A stretch of 37,245 bases of DNA from Steroidobacteraceae bacterium (GCA_019683695.1 JADGHX010000029.1:1-37245), one strand, 5' to 3'; shown: positions 1 through 16,991, counted from the first letter of the stretch. The notes: generated from the sequence alone by a model not told the origin. Numbers and translations: made by a program.

Positions 1-9
1 GGAGAAGAA

Positions 10-2109
10 GTCTCAATCCCTTCTTCATCAGGGCATCTCATCGAACAAGCACGGCCTGTCCTACCGGTTCCGGTCTCATGTCTCAATCCCTTCTTCATCA
101 GGGCATCTCATCGAACCGCTCGACGCCGAGTACTGGCCCGCATTCGAGGCGTCTCAATCCCTTCTTCATCAGGGCATCTCATCGAACCGAGCGGCTCAAG
201 GAAGCGCGTCGCGCGGTACGTGAGGTCTCAATCCCTTCTTCATCAGGGCATCTCATCGAACCTGTACTGACTGACCGCACGTGCGAATGCGCGGTTGTCT
301 CAATCCCTTCTTCATCAGGGCATCTCATCGAACCTCCAGCGGATTGTCATGCTCGCCGCGGAGCATCTGGTCTCAATCCCTTCTTCATCAGGGCATCTCA
401 TCGAACAGAAATCCGACGCCGACCGCCTGCGCGAGCTGATCGTCTCAATCCCTTCTTCATCAGGGCATCTCATCGAACCGCGATGGTCGGTAAACGCGGC
501 GTGCTCTTCATGTCTCAATCCCTTCTTCATCAGGGCATCTCATCGAACCCTCGCGCGCTACGAAAAAGAGTTGAAGACTCTTTGTCTCAATCCCTTCTTC
601 ATCAGGGCATCTCATCGAACCCGTACCGCGAGCACGTTCCGCCTGACCCGAAGGTCTCAATCCCTTCTTCATCAGGGCATCTCATCGAACCGCTGGCGTA
701 GATCAGCGCGACGCGTTCGCGGTTGTCTCAATCCCTTCTTCATCAGGGCATCTCATCGAACCTGCTACGAGTGCAAAAAGGACATCTACGCGCGTCTCAA
801 TCCCTTCTTCATCAGGGCATCTCATCGAACCATCTGGCGGCCAAGCAAGTCGACGAGAGTTTTTGTCTCAATCCCTTCTTCATCAGGGCATCTCATCGAA
901 CCCGACGCGCGCGGGGAACTGGTCTACGACCGCTGGTGTCTCAATCCCTTCTTCATCAGGGCATCTCATCGAACGCGACAACGGCAAGATGTACGTGCGC
1001 GGCTACTACAGTCTCAATCCCTTCTTCATCAGGGCATCTCATCGAACACTGGAGGGGCTAACGATGACGATACAGGAATTCGTGTCTCAATCCCTTCTTC
1101 ATCAGGGCATCTCATCGAACTTACCTGTGTGGCATCGACGACAGGTTTTGCAAGTCTCAATCCCTTCTTCATCAGGGCATCTCATCGAACCCCGAGTTGG
1201 GCGGCCTGGCTGGTATACCTCAGAGGTCTCAATCCCTTCTTCATCAGGGCATCTCATCGAACACGGAACGGCGATTAAATCCTGTACTGACTGACGTCTC
1301 AATCCCTTCTTCATCAGGGCATCTCATCGAACCAACCGCGTCGATGACGTGAACACGGCGCGCTAGGCGTCTCAATCCCTTCTTCATCAGGGCATCTCAT
1401 CGAACCAATGCATTCGCGCGCGAGGTCGGCTATAGCAGGTCTCAATCCCTTCTTCATCAGGGCATCTCATCGAACGCACGTGAGCATCGACCGGCCGCGC
1501 AGCGTTCGTCTCAATCCCTTCTTCATCAGGGCATCTCATCGAACCCGATGGGCGCAAGGAGGAGGCGAAGCTGATCAGTCTCAATCCCTTCTTCATCAGG
1601 GCATCTCATCGAACAGAAGGCCATGAAGGTAATCTCGATACCACAGAGTCTCAATCCCTTCTTCATCAGGGCATCTCATCGAACCAGCGACGACGCGTCT
1701 GAGGCCGAGGCCATCGAGGGTCTCAATCCCTTCTTCATCAGGGCATCTCATCGAACGGCGGCCGGGTTGTTATACCTCCGATCGCGTTACCGGTCTCAAT
1801 CCCTTCTTCATCAGGGCATCTCATCGAACCCACGCCAGAGCTGGACGAGCAACTGCGGGGTCTCAATCCCTTCTTCATCAGGGCATCTCATCGAACATCT
1901 GGAAGCGCAATACCGGATGACAATCGAGTGTCTCAATCCCTTCTTCATCAGGGCATCTCATCGAACGCGCGCCGACGTTGCAGCAGCTCTGTGAACGCTG
2001 GTCTCAATCCCTTCTTCATCAGGGCATCTCATCGAACTCTCGCTGATGAGTACGCCCGATTGGGCTTCGAAGGTCTCAATCCCTTCTTCATCAGGGCATC
2101 TCATCGAAC
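10..2109 (-). CRISPR. CRISPR array, 30 repeats of 37 nt and 29 spacers, type III-B
   Basis: Thirty 37-nt repeats, apparently all identical, start at 10, 80, 151, 225, 297, 370, 442, 512, 584, 654, 725, 794, 865, 938, 1011, 1084, 1154, 1226, 1296, 1369, 1439, 1508, 1578, 1648, 1720, 1793, 1860, 1930, 2001 and 2073. On the plus strand each begins GTCTCAATCC and ends CATCGAAC. Spacers are 30-37 nt. I infer leftward (minus-strand) transcription. The repeat read that way ends in ATTGAGAC, close to the common 8-nt crRNA 5' handle ATTGAAAC. The adaptation genes also lie on the right, which should be the leader end. The nine bases before 10 could be another spacer, so the array may continue past the left edge. 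The long open frames across this region are repeat translations, not genes. Confidence 0.99.
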
Positions 2110-2182
2110 TGCTCGCAGCCGGAATTCCTCCCAAATCATAGACTTGGAAGCATGCTTGCCGAACTTGCTGCGACTTGTCAGG
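2110..2182 (-). promoter_or_regulatory. CRISPR leader with candidate array promoter
   Basis: This is the short segment between the last repeat and the cas2b stop codon, on the side expected to carry the leader if the array is read leftwards. The minus strand has a good -10-like hexamer TATGAT (2135-2140), which would start transcription about 20 nt before the first repeat. I see no convincing -35. The leader may extend into the end of cas2b. Confidence 0.5.
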
Positions 2183-2192
2183 TTAACCTGAC
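2177..2192. repeat. 16-bp perfect palindrome at leader/cas2b junction
   Basis: GTCAGGTTAACCTGAC is a perfect 16-bp palindrome that contains the cas2b stop codon and sits about 70 bp from the first repeat. It could bind a dimeric protein or mark the leader. There is no T tract, so a terminator is unlikely. Confidence 0.6.
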
Positions 2193-2551
2193 GCTTTGCT
2201 TCGAGCACTGGTGGCCTTGGCCGACGGCGGCCGCCGAGTGAACGGAACAGAACGCGACGGAACAACTCCGGAGAGCATGAGTGTACCGTCTGGCAGCCCT
2301 TGCGAACCGAGCGTGTCGACGACTGGCATCTTCGGAATTCGATAGATGCGAACGTCATCGACACGGTCGTCTATTCGATCTGCAATTCGCGCTTTGATTA
2401 TTCCGAGCCGTTGTGGCGTGGCTTGCGTAACGAAGATGGAGTATTGAATCGACACGGCCTCTTCACTCAGAAGGCGATGCACTCGCCTGAGCCTGCGCGG
2501 AGACCGGATATCATAAGCGATAAGCCATTCGGCTGATTCGTTCAGTGCCAT
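2183..2551 (-). CDS. cas2: Cas2 (second copy, Cas2b) with basic C-terminal tail
   Basis: A Cas2-family protein of 122 aa; Cas2 dimers bridge Cas1 dimers in the spacer-integration complex. The beta1 motif IAYDI places the conserved Asp at residue 14. A typical ferredoxin-fold pattern follows, with VRIYRIP near 67-73 and a terminal motif GLPDGTLML near 85-93. Cas2 proteins usually end about there. This one goes on for some 29 residues rich in Ser, Arg and Lys, running towards the leader. The start ATG (2551) lies inside the end of cas1b (10-nt overlap), so the two are translationally coupled. It differs clearly from the other cas2 at 4394-4678. A decayed partial copy of this gene lies at 5151-5301. 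Confidence 0.88.
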   Translation of the reverse strand: MALNESAEWLIAYDIRSPRRLRRVHRLLSEEAVSIQYSIFVTQATPQRLGIIKARIADRIDDRVDDVRIYRIPKMPVVDTLGSQGLPDGTLMLSGVVPSRSVPFTRRPPSAKATSARSKASG

Positions 2552-3402
2552 TCGCGGAGAAGCTCCTGCGCCCTGCGGAACAGGCGCCCGAGAATATGCG
2601 CACAACGCCTCTCTAGGTCCTCGCTGTAGGTTTCGAGAATATATATCGCCTCGCGTGCAGTAGTGTCCAACTGCGAGCCCAAGCCCTGCAGCTCGAGTTC
2701 GAGCGCAAGTTCCAGGAGTCTGCAGACGTCCACGGCAAGACTTAACTCAGTGCCATCGATAGCAGTGTAGATCGCTGCAACACCAGCTTTGCGCACGTAC
2801 GCGGAAGAAAGCGCCATGAGTGCTGCGCTGTACAGCGAGTTGCGTGTTGATGCCGGTTGCTTCCTCTGCTCGTAGACGAATCGCCTGATGACTTCCCTAC
2901 GTGCAGGTGCATCCACTGGCCGGCCGGCAGCGCTTCTGTGCGAGATCCACGATTGCACGGCACGCATCCGTTCTGCGCGCAACCAATTGTCGTATTGTTC
3001 ACGCCAGTCAGTCCGCTCCAGAAACTCGGTCAGAAGCCTGTCGAGTGAGGATCTGACTGGAACAGTGGGTTGCACATAGCCCACTGGCGCGCCAGCGGCA
3101 TTCAGAATCACGATTGGGATGGCTCGCTCCAGGCAGCTTCTTACGGCCCGTGCGCGCCATTCAATAGAAGCAGCACAGACGATCCGCGACACCCGAGCCA
3201 ACGGGTATCGCACGATGGCACGACGCTCGCGCGAAACCGCCAGGGCGGGCCCATCGATGTCGACAACGCATCGCCGAGGTGACATCAGATACAGGGGCCT
3301 TGCTTCTGATACGCCGCGCCGAACATCGTGGTTGGGCGTACTTGCGGCCGGGCAGCCGCCAGCGTCGTCAGTTCGGGAGTGTGGACGCGGTTCTGCGTTC
3401 AT
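2542..3402 (-). CDS. Divergent Cas1-like protein (Cas1b) lacking catalytic residues
   Basis: A 286-aa protein with recognisable Cas1 architecture. The N-terminal beta domain runs from about 37 to 115, with a Cas1-like LYL...VDIDG start and a PIVILNAAGAPVG strand. A helical domain follows, in which residues 187-231 align by eye with the region of Cas1a that carries the metal ligands. The acidic position survives (AVDVCRLLE, D225). The His is replaced in AIDGTEL, and the block carrying the catalytic Glu (GLEGTAAAAFF in Cas1a) is missing or unrecognisable. Nuclease activity is therefore unlikely, and a structural or regulatory partner of Cas1a is more plausible. ATGA overlap with cas1a and 10-nt overlap with cas2b place it firmly in the adaptation operon. 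The first 35 residues look poorly conserved, so a later start is possible. Confidence 0.75.
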   Translation of the reverse strand: MNAEPRPHSRTDDAGGCPAASTPNHDVRRGVSEARPLYLMSPRRCVVDIDGPALAVSRERRAIVRYPLARVSRIVCAASIEWRARAVRSCLERAIPIVILNAAGAPVGYVQPTVPVRSSLDRLLTEFLERTDWREQYDNWLRAERMRAVQSWISHRSAAGRPVDAPARREVIRRFVYEQRKQPASTRNSLYSAALMALSSAYVRKAGVAAIYTAIDGTELSLAVDVCRLLELALELELQGLGSQLDTTAREAIYILETYSEDLERRCAHILGRLFRRAQELLREWH

Positions 3403-4391
3403 GCGCCGTCATCCCCTTCCGATTCGTCCTCATCAACAAGCATCGGTTCTCCGTGGCGGCGCAAGCCGCGAACGATGGCTGCGCATTGCCGCCGCAGAAA
3501 ACGACGCAAGAACGACGCCTTCTTTTCCCACGCTGCGTAGAAATGGGCACGGCCAGCCTTGCCGAGCAGACAGGCGCCCTTGTCGTACACAAAACTGTCC
3601 GCACGAAGTTCCCGAGTGCGCAGCATCTCCCAAGCCCAATCGTCTATTCGCGGACGCAGCGGTTCCACGAGGTCGCAGGCCATCGATTCGCGGCCAATCG
3701 CGGGTCGGTGATAGAAGCCAATCAGGGGGTCGAGGCCCGCTGCATGGCAGGCTGACACAGCTTCAAAATGCAGCAGCGTATAACCGAGCGACAGACAGGC
3801 GTTGACAGGATCGCGAGGCGGCCTGCGATTGCGCCCTGCGAAACCCAGACTCTCGGGGAACAGCGCACCGTATCCACGGAAAAACGCCGCTGCTGCCGTA
3901 CCTTCGAGGCCGCGAATTGTTGCCACATCGAGCTTCGAGGATGACTGCAGAGTGCGTCGTGTCGCTTCAATGGATGCGACTGCGTCACTGAGCGCCTTGC
4001 GGCAAGCCGGTCTCTGCTGGATCGCCTCCCGAAGGAGACGCAGGTGACCGCGAGTTTTGGCAAGCACGGTGCGACGCGCCCAGCGGAGGCACCAGTGATT
4101 GTCGAGCGCAAGCTGATATTGCGCGAGGCGGATGGCCGCATCCGAGTGCCCGGGGCCAAGCAGAATGGCAATGCGCTTGCTCTGTCTCCGGCTGAGAAGG
4201 ACAGTCGCGACGCCATTTTCGCCGAGACGAGTGAGCACCGCGGCTTCGAGCTTCACATTGCCCTGAATGACCAGGCGATCAAGCAGATTCAATGCAATCG
4301 TTCCACGCTTCTCACCGGATTCGTACAATGCGAGCGCTGCACCATCCGGTCGCAGCTCAAGATTTGAGCGATCCAGAACGAGCGTAGCCAT
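3399..4391 (-). CDS. cas1: Cas1 CRISPR integrase (canonical, Cas1a)
   Basis: Metal-dependent DNA integrase that inserts new spacers together with Cas2. It is 330 aa, normal for the family. The N-terminal beta domain is followed by the helical catalytic domain. All three metal ligands are visible: E163 in GLEGTAAAAFFRGYG, H228 in LDPLIGFYHRP, and D240 (with E243) in SMACDLVEPLRP. There is no fused reverse transcriptase or Cas4 domain. The gene starts two bases after the cas2a stop and overlaps cas1b by ATGA. An acidic C-terminal tail rich in Asp and Glu ends the protein. Confidence 0.97.
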   Translation of the reverse strand: MATLVLDRSNLELRPDGAALALYESGEKRGTIALNLLDRLVIQGNVKLEAAVLTRLGENGVATVLLSRRQSKRIAILLGPGHSDAAIRLAQYQLALDNHWCLRWARRTVLAKTRGHLRLLREAIQQRPACRKALSDAVASIEATRRTLQSSSKLDVATIRGLEGTAAAAFFRGYGALFPESLGFAGRNRRPPRDPVNACLSLGYTLLHFEAVSACHAAGLDPLIGFYHRPAIGRESMACDLVEPLRPRIDDWAWEMLRTRELRADSFVYDKGACLLGKAGRAHFYAAWEKKASFLRRFLRRQCAAIVRGLRRHGEPMLVDEDESEGDDGA

Positions 4392-4393
4392 GA

Positions 4394-4678
4394 TCAGCCG
4401 ACGTAGAAGTACGGTGGATCTACAGGTTCAACGGCGACACCCAAGGTGTACACGCGAGCGCGCGGGTCGAGCTTCAGCAGGAAGAAGCGATCGTTATCCT
4501 CATCCAGGATCAGCGCCATTTCGTGCAGCAGTTCAGCCTTCTCCGCTGCGGTGAGAAAGACCTCGTAGAAGGATTTTTGCCCTCCGGTCGCATGACCCTT
4601 GACGAGTTCCAGACTCGCGCGCAACCGCTTTCGGTCGGCGACATCATAGGCGGCCAGATAGAGGTCACGTTCGGGCAT
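4394..4678 (-). CDS. cas2: Cas2 (canonical length, Cas2a)
   Basis: A 94-aa Cas2 protein, partner of Cas1 in spacer integration. The first strand LYLAAYDV carries the conserved Asp at residue 12, and the length is typical. The start at 4678 is preceded by a GGAG/AGGAA-like ribosome site. An in-frame extension upstream overlaps the LysR remnant and does not look coding. The gene is the first of the adaptation cluster and is separated from cas6 by a 622-nt scar, so it may have its own promoter. It is only distantly similar to Cas2b. Confidence 0.9.
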   Translation of the reverse strand: MPERDLYLAAYDVADRKRLRASLELVKGHATGGQKSFYEVFLTAAEKAELLHEMALILDEDNDRFFLLKLDPRARVYTLGVAVEPVDPPYFYVG

Positions 4679-4936: not shown

Positions 4937-5078
4937 CGAGCAAGGTATTGATTCAGCGCCGCGCGGTTGCCAGCCGCCGGCACCGCGCCGATCATCGGCC
5001 TCCGAAGTCAGTCCGAACGGGGGTGAAGATGGCAAGGCATCTCATTTCCGCGCTCAAGTTCTCCAAGGTCTATCCGAT

Positions 5079-5150
5079 CCCCCGGTCTACGCTTCCACTG
5101 GACACCCCTTCGGCCAACAATCTTTGTCCAGTGGAAGCGTAGACCGGGGG
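5079..5150. repeat. Perfect 26-bp inverted repeat with 20-nt centre
   Basis: Arms 5079-5104 and 5125-5150 match at 26 of 26 positions: CCCCCGGTCTACG...TGGACA against TGTCCA...CGTAGACCGGGGG, around a 20-nt centre. The right arm ends exactly where the duplicated cas2b fragment begins. The inner ends read ...CA and TG..., like abutted insertion-sequence ends. Alternatively the whole 72 bp could be a small palindromic (MITE- or REP-like) element. No T tract follows either arm, so a simple intrinsic terminator is unlikely. Confidence 0.85.
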
Positions 5151-5301
5151 AACCGAGCGTGTCGACAACTGGCATTTTCGGGATTCGGTAGATGCGAACG
5201 TCATCGACACGGTCGTCTATTAGATCTGCAATTCGCGCCCGGATTGAGATGGAGTATTGAATCGACACGGCCTCTTCACTCGAAAGGCGATGCACCCGCC
5301 T
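5151..5301 (-). pseudogene. Decayed partial duplicate of cas2b
   Basis: These 151 bp match 2305-2488 inside cas2b, with about 8 substitutions and a net 33-nt deletion that removes roughly 11 codons after the SIQYSI segment. The start of Cas2, including its conserved Asp, is missing. At the right the copy abuts the cas6 stop codon. At the left it ends at the 26-bp inverted repeat, so the reading frame runs into unrelated sequence. It is non-functional as Cas2. Confidence 0.88.
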
Positions 5302-6305
5302 TATGCCGACCTGGACGCATGCTCAAAGACGCGCGTGCGTACGTCGAGCGGATTGCGGGTTGCGTGGGTGAACGTGACTTCGTATTTGCCGAGTCCCATC
5401 GTCGCGTTTTTTCCGGCATGCAACCACTGCCCGAGCCACAGCCAGCATGCGAGCTCGGTAAGAGGGCCGGTAAGCGTCCATTCACCGATCACACCACCCA
5501 GAGCCATCTCCTGTTTCTGACGAGAGGAATAGCGCCTCCAATCGCGCCAGCGAAGATTCCGAGTGTCCTGCAGTGCCTCGGCTTGCAGTGCCAAGTCAGT
5601 CGGATTCTTCACGAAGCCAGGCATGTCGGCGTGAATATCGAGCATGAGGGACGCGCGGCGCATGATCGCCGTGATCAGTGTTCTCGCGTGCAGCTCCTCC
5701 GGCCCCAATGCACGCCCCTGATTCTGAAGTCGCAGTGGCGTATGGATCCGCAGAGTTGCCGAATCCACCTCCGGGAAAGCGGGCACAACGAGTTCGGCCA
5801 GGTGGGACCGGATACTTTGAGTGTGGGTGTCCCATACGGATGTTCCCGGCCCGCTTGTCTCGAGCAGGACGTCTACCAACTCCGCGCGGGCACGGCGTTT
5901 GCCCAGGCCCTGTCGAAATGCGCGCCGGAACGAATGGACCACAAGTGGCAACTGGTTCAGGGCCCGGCCGAACAGCACAACACCGAACGAAATCGTGTCG
6001 CCTTGGGCAATTCGGCGAGCACCGAACGGGGGCGGCTCGATTACGTAAGGGTTGGGCACGGATGAAAACTTCTGCAGCGTGTGATGCGGAGGAGCAGGGG
6101 TTTCGAACATGGCAGGGTACGCACACGTACGAAGCAGAGAACACGCTGCACATTGCTTCAGTCCCGTGATGCAGACCGTCCGCTTCAACGCCGCTCCGAG
6201 CTGCCCTCGCAGCAACGATCCCGCGTACTCGGGAAGGTGAAGGTCATCGGTGACACGGAAGAGAAGGCGGTAGCGAGCGACTGGCAGCCGCTGGCCGGGC
6301 ATCAT
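5301..6305 (-). CDS. cas6: Cas6 pre-crRNA processing endoribonuclease
   Basis: A RAMP-fold endoribonuclease that cuts the CRISPR transcript within repeats, leaving an 8-nt 5' handle (here predicted AUUGAGAC). The protein is 334 aa. The N-terminal half carries a Cys cluster (C45, C52, C55, C61) of the kind seen in proteobacterial Cas6 proteins: CITG...CAAC...CAYP. The C-terminal half has the family glycine-rich region, with GGVIGEWTLTG and the G-loop HAGKNATMGLGKYEV near 297-311. The start ATG (6305) overlaps the stop of the CARF-nuclease gene as ATGA, which decides against the slightly longer frame. It is the last gene before the scar at 4679-5300. Confidence 0.92.
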   Translation of the reverse strand: MMPGQRLPVARYRLLFRVTDDLHLPEYAGSLLRGQLGAALKRTVCITGLKQCAACSLLRTCAYPAMFETPAPPHHTLQKFSSVPNPYVIEPPPFGARRIAQGDTISFGVVLFGRALNQLPLVVHSFRRAFRQGLGKRRARAELVDVLLETSGPGTSVWDTHTQSIRSHLAELVVPAFPEVDSATLRIHTPLRLQNQGRALGPEELHARTLITAIMRRASLMLDIHADMPGFVKNPTDLALQAEALQDTRNLRWRDWRRYSSRQKQEMALGGVIGEWTLTGPLTELACWLWLGQWLHAGKNATMGLGKYEVTFTHATRNPLDVRTRVFEHASRSA

Positions 6306-7444
6306 CGACCGGTCACCCATACCTTGAGTTTCTCGTCGAGGCGGCGGAGGTCACTGCCGCACACGAGCTCGACGTTCAGGGCGCGTGCTAACCTTTTCTC
6401 GTGCTCGTCAAGCATGCGATAGCTCGCGAGCATCGCGCGTGTGCCCAGTCCTCCAATGCGCCGGGAGATCTCGGCCAGCTTGAACAGCGCATCATTGGCT
6501 TTGCTGGCTTGCACGCCGTTCATGCGCGCTGTCTTGCACTCGATAACGTGTAGCCGGTTCCTTGCCATGAAGGCGACATCCAGCTCGTTCTTGACGCCGC
6601 TGGCATCGAATACGACGAGATTGACGTGCTTGTCCCGAACGCCAAGCTCCTGAGAGAGTCGCGACACCTCTCGGTATACGTATTCCTCGATCCACCCGCC
6701 ACCAGCGAACGCCCGGTCGGATTCACTGCGGAACTCGATGCGATCGCCTCCGATCGCAAGCACATCGGAGTCCGAAAACTTTTGCAGCAGCGACTGAAGA
6801 CCGGCACTGCCGCCGTGGGGCGGCAACTCGATGCTCAAGCTTTCGCGCGCTTCTGCGGCATGCGCCAATGCATTGAGCTCGCCAATTGGGCCAGCGAGGC
6901 TGCCGACGTTCAGAATCAGATCTTCGAGCAGGCCGTCGAGATTCTTGCTCGAATCCGGGCTCCTGAGTCCGGGTTGGGGGTCATACCCATAAGCCCGAAG
7001 ATAATCAGGCAGTCGAATCTTCGGCTCGAGCCGGAATCGAGTCGGTTCGTTCGTTAGGACAATGAGCTCATCCGTATCGATATCGACGTAGAAGACGTCC
7101 CAACGCAACCCTCCCTCTCGTACCGTCTGATAGGCAGCGAGCGCCATGAGCTTGGTGCCACCGCTGAGATTGAGTGCGACCTGCTCTTTCTCATACTCCG
7201 ACGCGACGTTCAATACGATATTCTTCAGGCGCACAACATCGTGCTCGTCGTCTATCAGTACCCGACTGGTCTTGATGCCCGATGTGCGGAGCACTCTTTC
7301 CATCGCGTCCGCTTTTGATGCCATCTTCCCGGTCACCAGAAGAATGACGTTCTGCGGCTTTTGGCATTGCGGATCCAGGGCGGGCAGCAGGTTGGGCGCC
7401 GCCTGCGCCGAAACGAAACAAATGTGGATTTTCGCTTTCAGCAC
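6302..7444 (-). CDS. CARF-domain PD-(D/E)XK nuclease, Can2/Card1 family
   Basis: A type III ancillary effector: an N-terminal CARF domain senses cyclic oligoadenylate (cA4 in characterised Can2/Card1 proteins) and switches on a C-terminal nuclease that degrades nucleic acid. In this 380-aa protein the CARF ligand loop is visible as LNLSGGTKLMALAAYQ (91-106). The nuclease core is NELDVAFMARNRLHVIECKT, with D289, E302 and K304 forming the D...ExK signature, and an upstream acidic WIEEYVYREV near 251-260. No HEPN motif is seen. The start is GTG at 7444 with a weak ribosome site, 42 nt after cmr6; the end overlaps cas6. Substrate preference (DNA, RNA or both) cannot be read from sequence. Confidence 0.9.
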   Translation of the reverse strand: MLKAKIHICFVSAQAAPNLLPALDPQCQKPQNVILLVTGKMASKADAMERVLRTSGIKTSRVLIDDEHDVVRLKNIVLNVASEYEKEQVALNLSGGTKLMALAAYQTVREGGLRWDVFYVDIDTDELIVLTNEPTRFRLEPKIRLPDYLRAYGYDPQPGLRSPDSSKNLDGLLEDLILNVGSLAGPIGELNALAHAAEARESLSIELPPHGGSAGLQSLLQKFSDSDVLAIGGDRIEFRSESDRAFAGGGWIEEYVYREVSRLSQELGVRDKHVNLVVFDASGVKNELDVAFMARNRLHVIECKTARMNGVQASKANDALFKLAEISRRIGGLGTRAMLASYRMLDEHEKRLARALNVELVCGSDLRRLDEKLKVWVTGR

Positions 7445-15325: not shown

Positions 15326-16498
15326 TCAACCCGCTCGGTCAATTTGCGCAAAACGAATGCTCTCCGGCGGAATCGCAAGCTTGTAGTGCCTTTGGCGGCT
15401 CGTACCTTTGTCGATACCGTACGTATTGGCGGCAGGTCCGAGTGCTGTCGTGATACGGCGGCGGAGTTTGCTCAGCTTTTGGGCGAAATAGTCATCGATA
15501 ACGCCCTTTGAGGCGCTTATGGCGTCCTCGACGCTGTCGGGTATGTGAAGCTCACCGCAGGCTGCCGCGAGATCTCGCAGATACTCGGCGCACCATTCTT
15601 GGTCCACACAGGCCTTCGCAGGTGCTCTGAGAGGCGGCAATCCTGCTTTTGTACGGTATGCAAGCACCGCCATGACAGCGAAAAGAGCTGGCTCGAGATC
15701 GATGACGCGGCCGCCCGCTCGAATACGCCTGTTGCGCACGTCGATGATCAGCTCAGGCGGTGCGAGCGCCGCACGGGCTGCCGCCACGGTGGCGTTGAAT
15801 GTCGCCTTGCCTTCTATGAGCTCCTTCGGCAATCCATGACGGAGGCTCACGATCGGAATCTCTGCCAGAGAAATCTGTGCATCGCGAGCATTCACCGCCA
15901 GGGGCGGGGCGTCGCGCGTCTGGAGAACTTGATCGTATGGCGTCGGGTAGTAGAAGTCCGGATTCGATTCGAATGGGCGCGAAACGAGGACGTGACTCAG
16001 TCGATCTTGAGGACGTGCAAACAGGGATAGTGCGTACCCGAGATAGAAACCCATTGTCTTGCGGCCCCCCGCCAGCGAAACATGCAGCGCTGCGGCCGTG
16101 TCGCCTGTCAACTCGCGAACGATCGCGGTGATGTAATCCGCCGCGTATTCGTTGTCGCCCGGCGTACGGATGTCTTCCATGGGAAGACCGTTCGCACCCG
16201 CGATTACGTGAATGCAGGATTCGTCAAAACGGATCTCGGGCAGGGAATAATCGGTGCGCAGGCGCCGGAACCACCCTGGCCGGCCCGCAGCCGACATCAA
16301 CAGGTTATTAATTGCTTGCTCCCGTCCTCGCACTGTCGTGATCAGGCGGACCTCGGTGGGTACATACGCTGGCCTTCCTTCCGCCGGGCGTACGGCCAAC
16401 GCATACAGAGTCTCTGTAACGATCTGCGGTGACAGGCCTGTCGCCGCCAACAAGATGCGGCGAGGGTAGCGGTGCGGCTGGTCGGGGTTCAGGTCCAT
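15326..16498 (-). CDS. CARF protein (NE0113/TIGR02584-like) with C-terminal winged helix
   Basis: This is the first gene of the Cmr operon. Residues about 13-180 form a CARF domain: RRILLAATGLSPQIVTETL at the start, VSLAGGRKTMGFYLGYALS as the ligand loop (140-158), then LSHVLVSRPFE and FYYPTP, a pattern typical of the NE0113 family. Some databases label such proteins Csm6 or ring nuclease. I find no HEPN R-x4-6-H motif. Instead, residues from about 250 resemble an OmpR/PhoB-type winged helix: IIDVRNRRIRAGGRVIDLEP, then ALFAVMAVLAY, ending LSKLRRRITTALG...RQRHYKL. I infer a cyclic-oligoadenylate-responsive transcription factor, possibly also a ring nuclease. The ATG at 16498 has no clear ribosome site; a TTG at 16501 is the alternative. 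Confidence 0.75.
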   Translation of the reverse strand: MDLNPDQPHRYPRRILLAATGLSPQIVTETLYALAVRPAEGRPAYVPTEVRLITTVRGREQAINNLLMSAAGRPGWFRRLRTDYSLPEIRFDESCIHVIAGANGLPMEDIRTPGDNEYAADYITAIVRELTGDTAAALHVSLAGGRKTMGFYLGYALSLFARPQDRLSHVLVSRPFESNPDFYYPTPYDQVLQTRDAPPLAVNARDAQISLAEIPIVSLRHGLPKELIEGKATFNATVAAARAALAPPELIIDVRNRRIRAGGRVIDLEPALFAVMAVLAYRTKAGLPPLRAPAKACVDQEWCAEYLRDLAAACGELHIPDSVEDAISASKGVIDDYFAQKLSKLRRRITTALGPAANTYGIDKGTSRQRHYKLAIPPESIRFAQIDRAG

Positions 16499-16991
16499 CA
16501 AAGGGATTGCTTCGTCTTTTGGGTGGAGAGCCTACATGTGAAACGGGCGGCCGTTCCAGATCGCAAGCTTGCGGTTCGCGAACACCCGGGCACACGGTCG
16601 GGCCGCCTGCGTGTCCGCGAACTTCATTCTCCCGTCTACCCTCTGGACGTTCCCCGATTCATGGCGGGGCATCGGGAGCTCAAGGCGGGGACATTCAAGG
16701 CACTGTGCCGAGTATTGCCCGTGCGGCAAGCCCACCTTCCGGGGTCCTGCTGATCAGAAGCTGTTTGGGCGAATCGCAACCCACGCCGACATGGGAGAGC
16801 AACAGCACCGGTCGATGTTTGCGATCTCGGGGAACGGGCCAATCTCAACCGTGTAGTCGCCGCCGCTTGATGAGCAGTGCTTGTCACGGCGCGAGGTTTC
16901 GTGATGCGCTCTTCCCTGATCTAGACGGGCGTCCAGGATGGCACCCTCCCGGCGCATGTCGAGGCGGCCGTGCCCCGCCCAAGTACGCGGT
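16499..16991. other. 493-nt region upstream of the Cmr operon, no firm gene
   Basis: This stretch should hold the promoter of the minus-strand Cmr operon, but I see no strong -35/-10 pair. One short minus-strand frame (16532-16735, about 67 codons) ends ANRKLAIWNGRPFHM and contains a CLEC pair. It continues in the same frame from a longer piece (16754-17050) that is interrupted by a TGA, so it may be a decayed gene. I do not recognise it and would not call it functional. Confidence 0.4.

Follow-up and report, generated by a model that had tools for sequence, protein, structure and literature searches.

The window, by which we mean the whole stretch of 37,245 nucleotides that was analyzed, carries on its minus strand a CRISPR array, four adaptation genes and a type III-B effector locus. 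In the direction of transcription the four adaptation genes encode a first Cas2, a canonical Cas1 (Cas1a), a degenerate Cas1 (Cas1b) and a second Cas2. The features are, in window coordinates:

1..2109, minus strand: CRISPR array of at least 30 repeats that continues past the contig end; repeat GTTCGATGAGATGCCCTGATGAAGAAGGGATTGAGAC on the minus strand, spacers of 30-37 nt
2110..2182, minus strand: leader of 73 nt from the second cas2 to the first repeat, with a fixed-position motif in an ungapped alignment of 44 leaders
2183..2551, minus strand: second Cas2, 122 aa, overlapping cas1b by 10 nt; PF09827, E 2.8e-13
2542..3402, minus strand: Cas1b, degenerate non-catalytic Cas1 paralogue, 286 aa; family PDLC01185, 126.9 bits over the full length
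3399..4391, minus strand: Cas1a, canonical and presumably catalytic Cas1, 330 aa, with E163, H228 and D240; PF01867, E 2.9e-69
4394..4678, minus strand: first Cas2, opening gene of the module, 94 aa, motif ATGGQKSxxExxLT; PF09827, E 5.7e-8
5301..6320, minus strand: Cas6; PF10040, E 2.5e-13; PDLC01477, E 4.4e-98
6302..7444, minus strand: Card1/Can2-like CARF-PDDEXK effector; PF09002 and PF23400
7487..15304, minus strand: type III-B effector (Cmr6, Cmr5, Cmr4, Cmr3, Cas10/Cmr2 and a RAMP); TIGR01898, PADLOC Cmr5, TIGR02580, PF09700 and TIGR02577
14231-15304, minus strand: the RAMP, probable Cmr1; weak match, E 8e-4

The initial annotation had described four genes joined by tiny gaps or overlaps, and the open reading frames were found at these coordinates with junctions of +2 nt (first cas2/cas1a), -4 nt (cas1a/cas1b) and -10 nt (cas1b/second cas2). 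Both Cas2s and Cas1a were recognized by Pfam and NCBIfam. The two Cas2 proteins scored above the PF09827 cut-off of 23.8 bits (33.3 bits for the first, 50.3 bits for the second) and each had the beta1 Asp that had been reported for it, which is conserved as YD among relatives. Among 20 relatives of the first Cas2 the residues Y11, D12, G32, QKS 34-36 and E39 were invariant, and the second Cas2 occupies the same place in the loci of relatives. The PF01867 match of Cas1a was full-length (residues 5-290), that of Cas1b was confined to the N-terminal domain (44-121, E 1.2e-8), and generic Cas1 models likewise matched only this domain of Cas1b. The PADLOC model PDLC01185, named "Cas1, diverged variant, second in the loci" after the same locus position, aligned Cas1b residues 37-286 to profile positions 1-246 of 246 (E 2.4e-37) and was matched by all 82 Cas1b relatives.

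The locus was assigned to type III-B by the presence of Cas10/Cmr2 together with Cmr3-Cmr6. At module loci elsewhere the effectors were mostly Cmr genes, and a strong Csm1 match was present in at least one locus. In addition to the Card1-like effector, the III-B locus of the window encodes an NE0113-type protein at 15326-16501 (PF09623; NCBIfam "ring nuclease Csm6" family). Between the first cas2 and cas6 lie the two arms (5073-5104 and 5125-5156) of a 32-nt inverted repeat. After it comes an incomplete, degenerate copy of the second cas2, in which 5141-5245 corresponds to 2295-2399 and 5247-5301 to 2434-2488 with 89-95% identity. No other copy of the inverted-repeat core of 5073-5156 was found in the genome, and the region 5073-5301 has the appearance of an IS end or of a scar left by rearrangement.

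Conservation of the four-gene unit

When 369 genomes of the same class were screened with PDLC01185, 25 had a match, and the arrangement Cas2-Cas1a-Cas1b-Cas2 was present in 19 of them, the window's own not counted. In two of these 19 (L018 and L021) the last gene or two were cut short or missed by the search. To scan independently of cas1b, a genome collection was searched with the first Cas2 alone. This gave 172 relatives, which shows that the module is common; the 80 loci that were kept and annotated with profiles comprised 69 complete modules, 6 loci ended by contig edges and 5 exceptions. The same four genes, in the same order and on the same strand, were thus found in 69 of the 74 loci with enough sequence, and in the same 69 of 74 the second Cas1 followed the canonical one, the position after which PDLC01185 is named.

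The module was complete in all nine named isolate records, which were from Ectothiorhodospira (three), Thiothrix (two), Rhodoferax antarcticus, Malikia spinosa, Tepidimonas charontis and Thioalkalivibrio ALE14. It was also present in three loci from a wider phylum sample (L134-L136), and the records of the first-Cas2 relatives include Acidobacteria and Neomarinimicrobiota. Across module loci the median junctions were 5, -4 and -1 nt. A search for the same gene order in other loci had been proposed with the initial annotation, which took the degenerate pair to be functionally coupled to the canonical one and named missing co-occurrence as the outcome that would speak against it; co-occurrence in 69 of 74 loci from the cas1b-independent search, together with the matching clades described below, bears the coupling out.

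All five exceptions were metagenome-assembled genomes (MAGs), in which cas1b was deleted, broken or not reached. One locus breaks off within cas1a (L033), one has lost both cas1 genes (L062) and one retains a remnant of cas1b (L080). In the other two (L071, 8714-9025; L085, 11350-11900) cas1b was absent, and an apparently intact cas1a, both cas2s and an array were kept. These two loci suggest that cas1b may be dispensable for maintenance, acquisition being a separate matter, and they would be useful natural controls if they are not assembly artefacts, both being MAGs.

Active-site residues, selection and phylogeny

The residues E163, H228 and D240, correctly assigned to Cas1a at the outset, were identical in all 97 family members of more than 280 aa, and Cas1a has the complete Glu-His-Asp active site. 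Cas1b lacks this triad and was for that reason not filed as an active Cas1. The reported loss of the catalytic His and Glu and retention of D225 in Cas1b also proved correct: among 82 Cas1b sequences no conserved catalytic His or Glu column was found, and, apart from D225, conserved in 76%, no acidic residue was frequent at the catalytic positions. Most of the conserved residues of Cas1b (Y38, L54, P67, R70, R73, W82, A86, C90, W140, G207 and L222) belong to the N-terminal beta domain, and this domain was better conserved than the C-terminal domain (mean entropy 2.23 vs 2.88 bits).

Cas1b evolves fast, with a mean identity of 26%. The median dN/dS of independent close pairs was 0.14 for the first Cas2, 0.15 for Cas1a, 0.19 for Cas1b and 0.18 for the second Cas2. 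The cas1b values are from 16 independent pairs, which exclude the window's own cas1b as no relative exceeds about 40% identity to it. Every cas1b pair was below 1, with a maximum of 0.64 in one pair, and it follows that selection preserves the dead Cas1; the relaxed selection that the proposed dN/dS test might have revealed was not observed.

A tree was calculated from 28 Cas1a, 28 Cas1b and 27 ordinary Cas1 sequences. Cas1a and Cas1b each formed a monophyletic clan (SH-aLRT 96 and 100, respectively), and a subclade of ten loci, the window among them, recurred in both. This topology indicates one old split between Cas1a and Cas1b, after which the genes were inherited as a unit. The four-gene adaptation module, with two dissimilar Cas2s and two Cas1s of which one has an active site and the other is catalytically dead, is conserved and co-inherited. 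The distance matrices of the four proteins were correlated (0.48-0.65), and the partial correlation of cas1b was higher with cas1a (0.37) than with the first Cas2 (0.22) or the second Cas2 (0.08). As shared ancestry explains much of this signal, it is only suggestive of a contact between Cas1b and Cas1a.

Predicted structures

The structure of Cas1b was predicted with AlphaFold2 using 82 sequences (pLDDT 88.8, pTM 0.83). The model contained all strands of the N-terminal beta domain and a helical C-terminal domain, i.e., the two-domain Cas1 fold. When it was compared with the PDB using Foldseek, all of the 50 best matches were Cas1 proteins or complexes that contain Cas1, with E values as low as 4e-10 and a TMq of about 0.40-0.65. 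The Cas1a model resembled an ordinary Cas1, with a pLDDT of 90.8 and a TM of up to 0.84 to solved Cas1 structures. As modeled, Cas1b is a whole folded pseudoenzyme and no fragment. Searches with Cas1b gave no match at E <= 0.001 in a viral fold library and no match among plasmids.

The Cas1b model was closer to chains B/D of the E. coli Cas1-Cas2 complex than to chains A/C, and we considered whether it represents the non-catalytic conformer. As the Cas1a model, used as a control, preferred the same conformer class in the entries shared by both (4xtk A-D, 2yzs A), this likeness is uninformative on the role of Cas1b.

Repeat and leader

The repeat beside the modules is 37 nt long and ends in CCCTGA....AAGGGATTAAGAC, a signature common to 44 loci; the variant in the window ends in ...GGGATTGAGAC. 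All 41 arrays that lie 3' of the module have the same direction as the operon. Among the 369 genomes the repeat signature was found in 16 of the 20 with the module and in 9 of the 349 without it (Fisher p 2e-18), the 20 being the 19 with the full arrangement and one genome in which the module is ended by a contig edge (G147). Arrays with module-type repeats were also present in five genomes that had no match to the diverged Cas1 (G015, G056, G061, G066 and G237). Module loss, incomplete assembly or another integrase that uses the same repeats are possible explanations for these five.

The leader, which separates the second cas2 from the first repeat, had a median length of 118 nt. In the leader of the window GGCAAG lies at about -50, and the IHF-like sequence CAANNNNNTG occupies -37 to -28 on the minus strand. 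Ungapped alignment of the 44 leaders showed CAA at a fixed position near -48 and CAANNNNTTR at -37. The latter was present at this position in 26 leaders and shifted by one base in another 7, and the best of 200 shuffles gave 4. CAANNNNTTR is similar to the consensus core of IHF sites. Bending by IHF helps to define the leader side in types I-E and I-F. By analogy, IHF bending may help to define the leader side at the module arrays, and leader recognition may be served by the IHF-like element as in other integrases. The module has a repeat and leader type of its own.

Relation to known adaptation systems

Cas1a shares the catalytic triad and the fold with the Cas1 of the canonical Cas1-Cas2 heterohexamer (E. 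coli I-E, P. aeruginosa I-F, I-C and II-A). Canonical hexamers already hold catalytic and non-catalytic Cas1 protomers (PMC10011333), but one gene provides both and Cas2 is a homodimer, whereas the window has additional genes for a dead Cas1 and for another Cas2. The Cas6-RT-Cas1-Cas2 complex of type III is likewise an adaptation module with catalytic Cas1a and non-catalytic Cas1b protomers (PMC8102632); there a single Cas1 gene is fused to RT and Cas6, whereas Cas1 and Cas6 of the window are separate genes. PDLC01185 is a catalogue entry only, without the four-gene unit, the selection, the repeat and leader or a mechanism, and in the open-licence literature we found no functional account of the diverged second Cas1 or of the module. 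The module is a real and conserved CRISPR adaptation variant that is catalogued but, within that literature, mechanistically undescribed.

Proposed integrase and alternative explanations

Known Cas1 dimers are asymmetric: one protomer catalyzes and the other, there called Cas1b, contacts Cas2 (PMC10011333), and such a non-catalytic protomer has also been described elsewhere (PMC8102632). The statement in the initial annotation that typical integrases are homodimer-built is incomplete in this respect, as only one protomer of each Cas1 homodimer is catalytic (PMC10011333, PMC8102632). This asymmetry is central to the interpretation of Cas1b. In the module a conserved, folded, dead Cas1 is translated together with an active one, so in the simplest reading a separate gene serves the silent role. 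We consider it probable, with some reserve, that the four genes encode one dedicated integrase with Cas1a:Cas1b heterodimers and perhaps a Cas2 heterodimer. The heteromeric integrase suggested in the initial annotation is retained in this reading, without the argument from spacer orientation.

We infer the heterodimer, the hexamer, the Cas2 heterodimer and the DNA-guiding role as the steps of the following arrangement. The known hexamer contains two Cas1 dimers, each with one protomer for catalysis and another that touches Cas2 and forms the lining of the repeat channel; in the module these roles would be divided between two genes. Each dimer would be a Cas1a:Cas1b heterodimer joined via the better conserved N-terminal beta domains. 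Cas1a would insert the spacer ends, and Cas1b, freed from keeping an active site, would act as a dedicated structural and DNA-guiding protomer. Less certainly, the two Cas2s would form a heterodimer, and the core would then no longer be two-fold symmetric. A stricter form, which we put forward only tentatively, is an obligately asymmetric four-chain integrase, in which two Cas1a:Cas1b heterodimers surround a Cas2:Cas2' heterodimer and the protein itself tells the leader side from the spacer side.

The main alternative is that Cas1a and the first Cas2 form an ordinary hexamer, and that Cas1b and the second Cas2 constitute a separate accessory complex outside the integrase core, with a role in, e.g., prespacer capture, protection or trimming (Cas4-like), or in holding the leader. 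The adjacent and often overlapping cas1b and second cas2 would be consistent with such a complex, as would the natural loci without cas1b that keep Cas1a and both Cas2s. However, the partial distance correlation links cas1b with cas1a and not with the neighboring second Cas2, and the best-kept part of Cas1b is the Cas1 dimer domain, so that we regard an accessory complex as unlikely.

The extra subunits could instead serve mainly to break the two-fold symmetry of the integrase and impose a single spacer orientation. The initial annotation had suggested that they fix the insertion orientation, and had pointed to a strong strand bias of the spacers. No phage matches to the spacers were found, and the bias was therefore judged by codon usage. 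In the window it was weak, with 18 vs 11 of 29 complete spacers, and not significant. Family-wide, the crRNA was antisense to the better-coding strand in 63% of 1296 spacers from 50 arrays (p 2e-20), or in about 72% after correction for the accuracy of the test. The bias showed no trend with age, by which acquisition bias and selection might have been told apart: the first six spacers, i.e., the newest, gave 62% and older ones 64% (Fisher p 0.58). This family-wide bias would fit an orienting integrase, as would the fact that four non-identical subunits could be asymmetric and that the type I-F integrase is C2 symmetric yet must still be oriented (PMC12259127).

However, the strong bias claimed for the window did not hold up, and the family-wide bias is explained equally well by selection during interference. 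Type III effectors need crRNAs that are antisense to transcripts. Interference favors such crRNAs regardless of a polarity device, and the bias is thus no proof of an orienting integrase. Furthermore, the IHF-like core of the leader offers a known alternative route to polarity, and DNA prespacers carry no mark of the transcribed strand. Orientation as the main function of the extra subunits appears quite improbable to us. Finally, the loss of catalytic residues, the divergence of cas1b, which is the fastest, and its deletion in a few MAG loci could point to Cas1b and the second Cas2 being a decaying or neutral duplicate, but this is hardly credible given 69 of 74 loci across several classes and phyla, intact frames, a median cas1b dN/dS of 0.19 and a single ancient origin, and the window holds a truly decaying copy for contrast in the partial second-cas2 fragment at 5141-5301. 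The doubt about simple decay expressed in the initial annotation was justified: dN/dS was always below 1, the co-occurrence is conserved, and recent-duplicate decay of cas1b and the second cas2 is ruled out by this purifying selection and conservation, barring artefacts in both.

To our knowledge, every studied Cas1-Cas2 integrase uses one Cas1 protein in two roles, and its catalytic and non-catalytic protomers therefore cannot be mutated separately. If the reading of the four genes as one dedicated integrase is true, the roles lie on two genes, each could be tested alone and the job of the silent protomer would be revealed. The module would also show how type III systems, in which no PAM is used, decide spacer polarity, and whether the complex loses its symmetry through a Cas2 heterodimer. 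Recorder tools could gain an integrase with separable parts.

The host genome contains further Cas1 genes at C81:13705 and C127:45064, the former an open frame of 706 aa that is probably a fusion. A second array with the repeat of the window, in six copies, is present on host contig C258.
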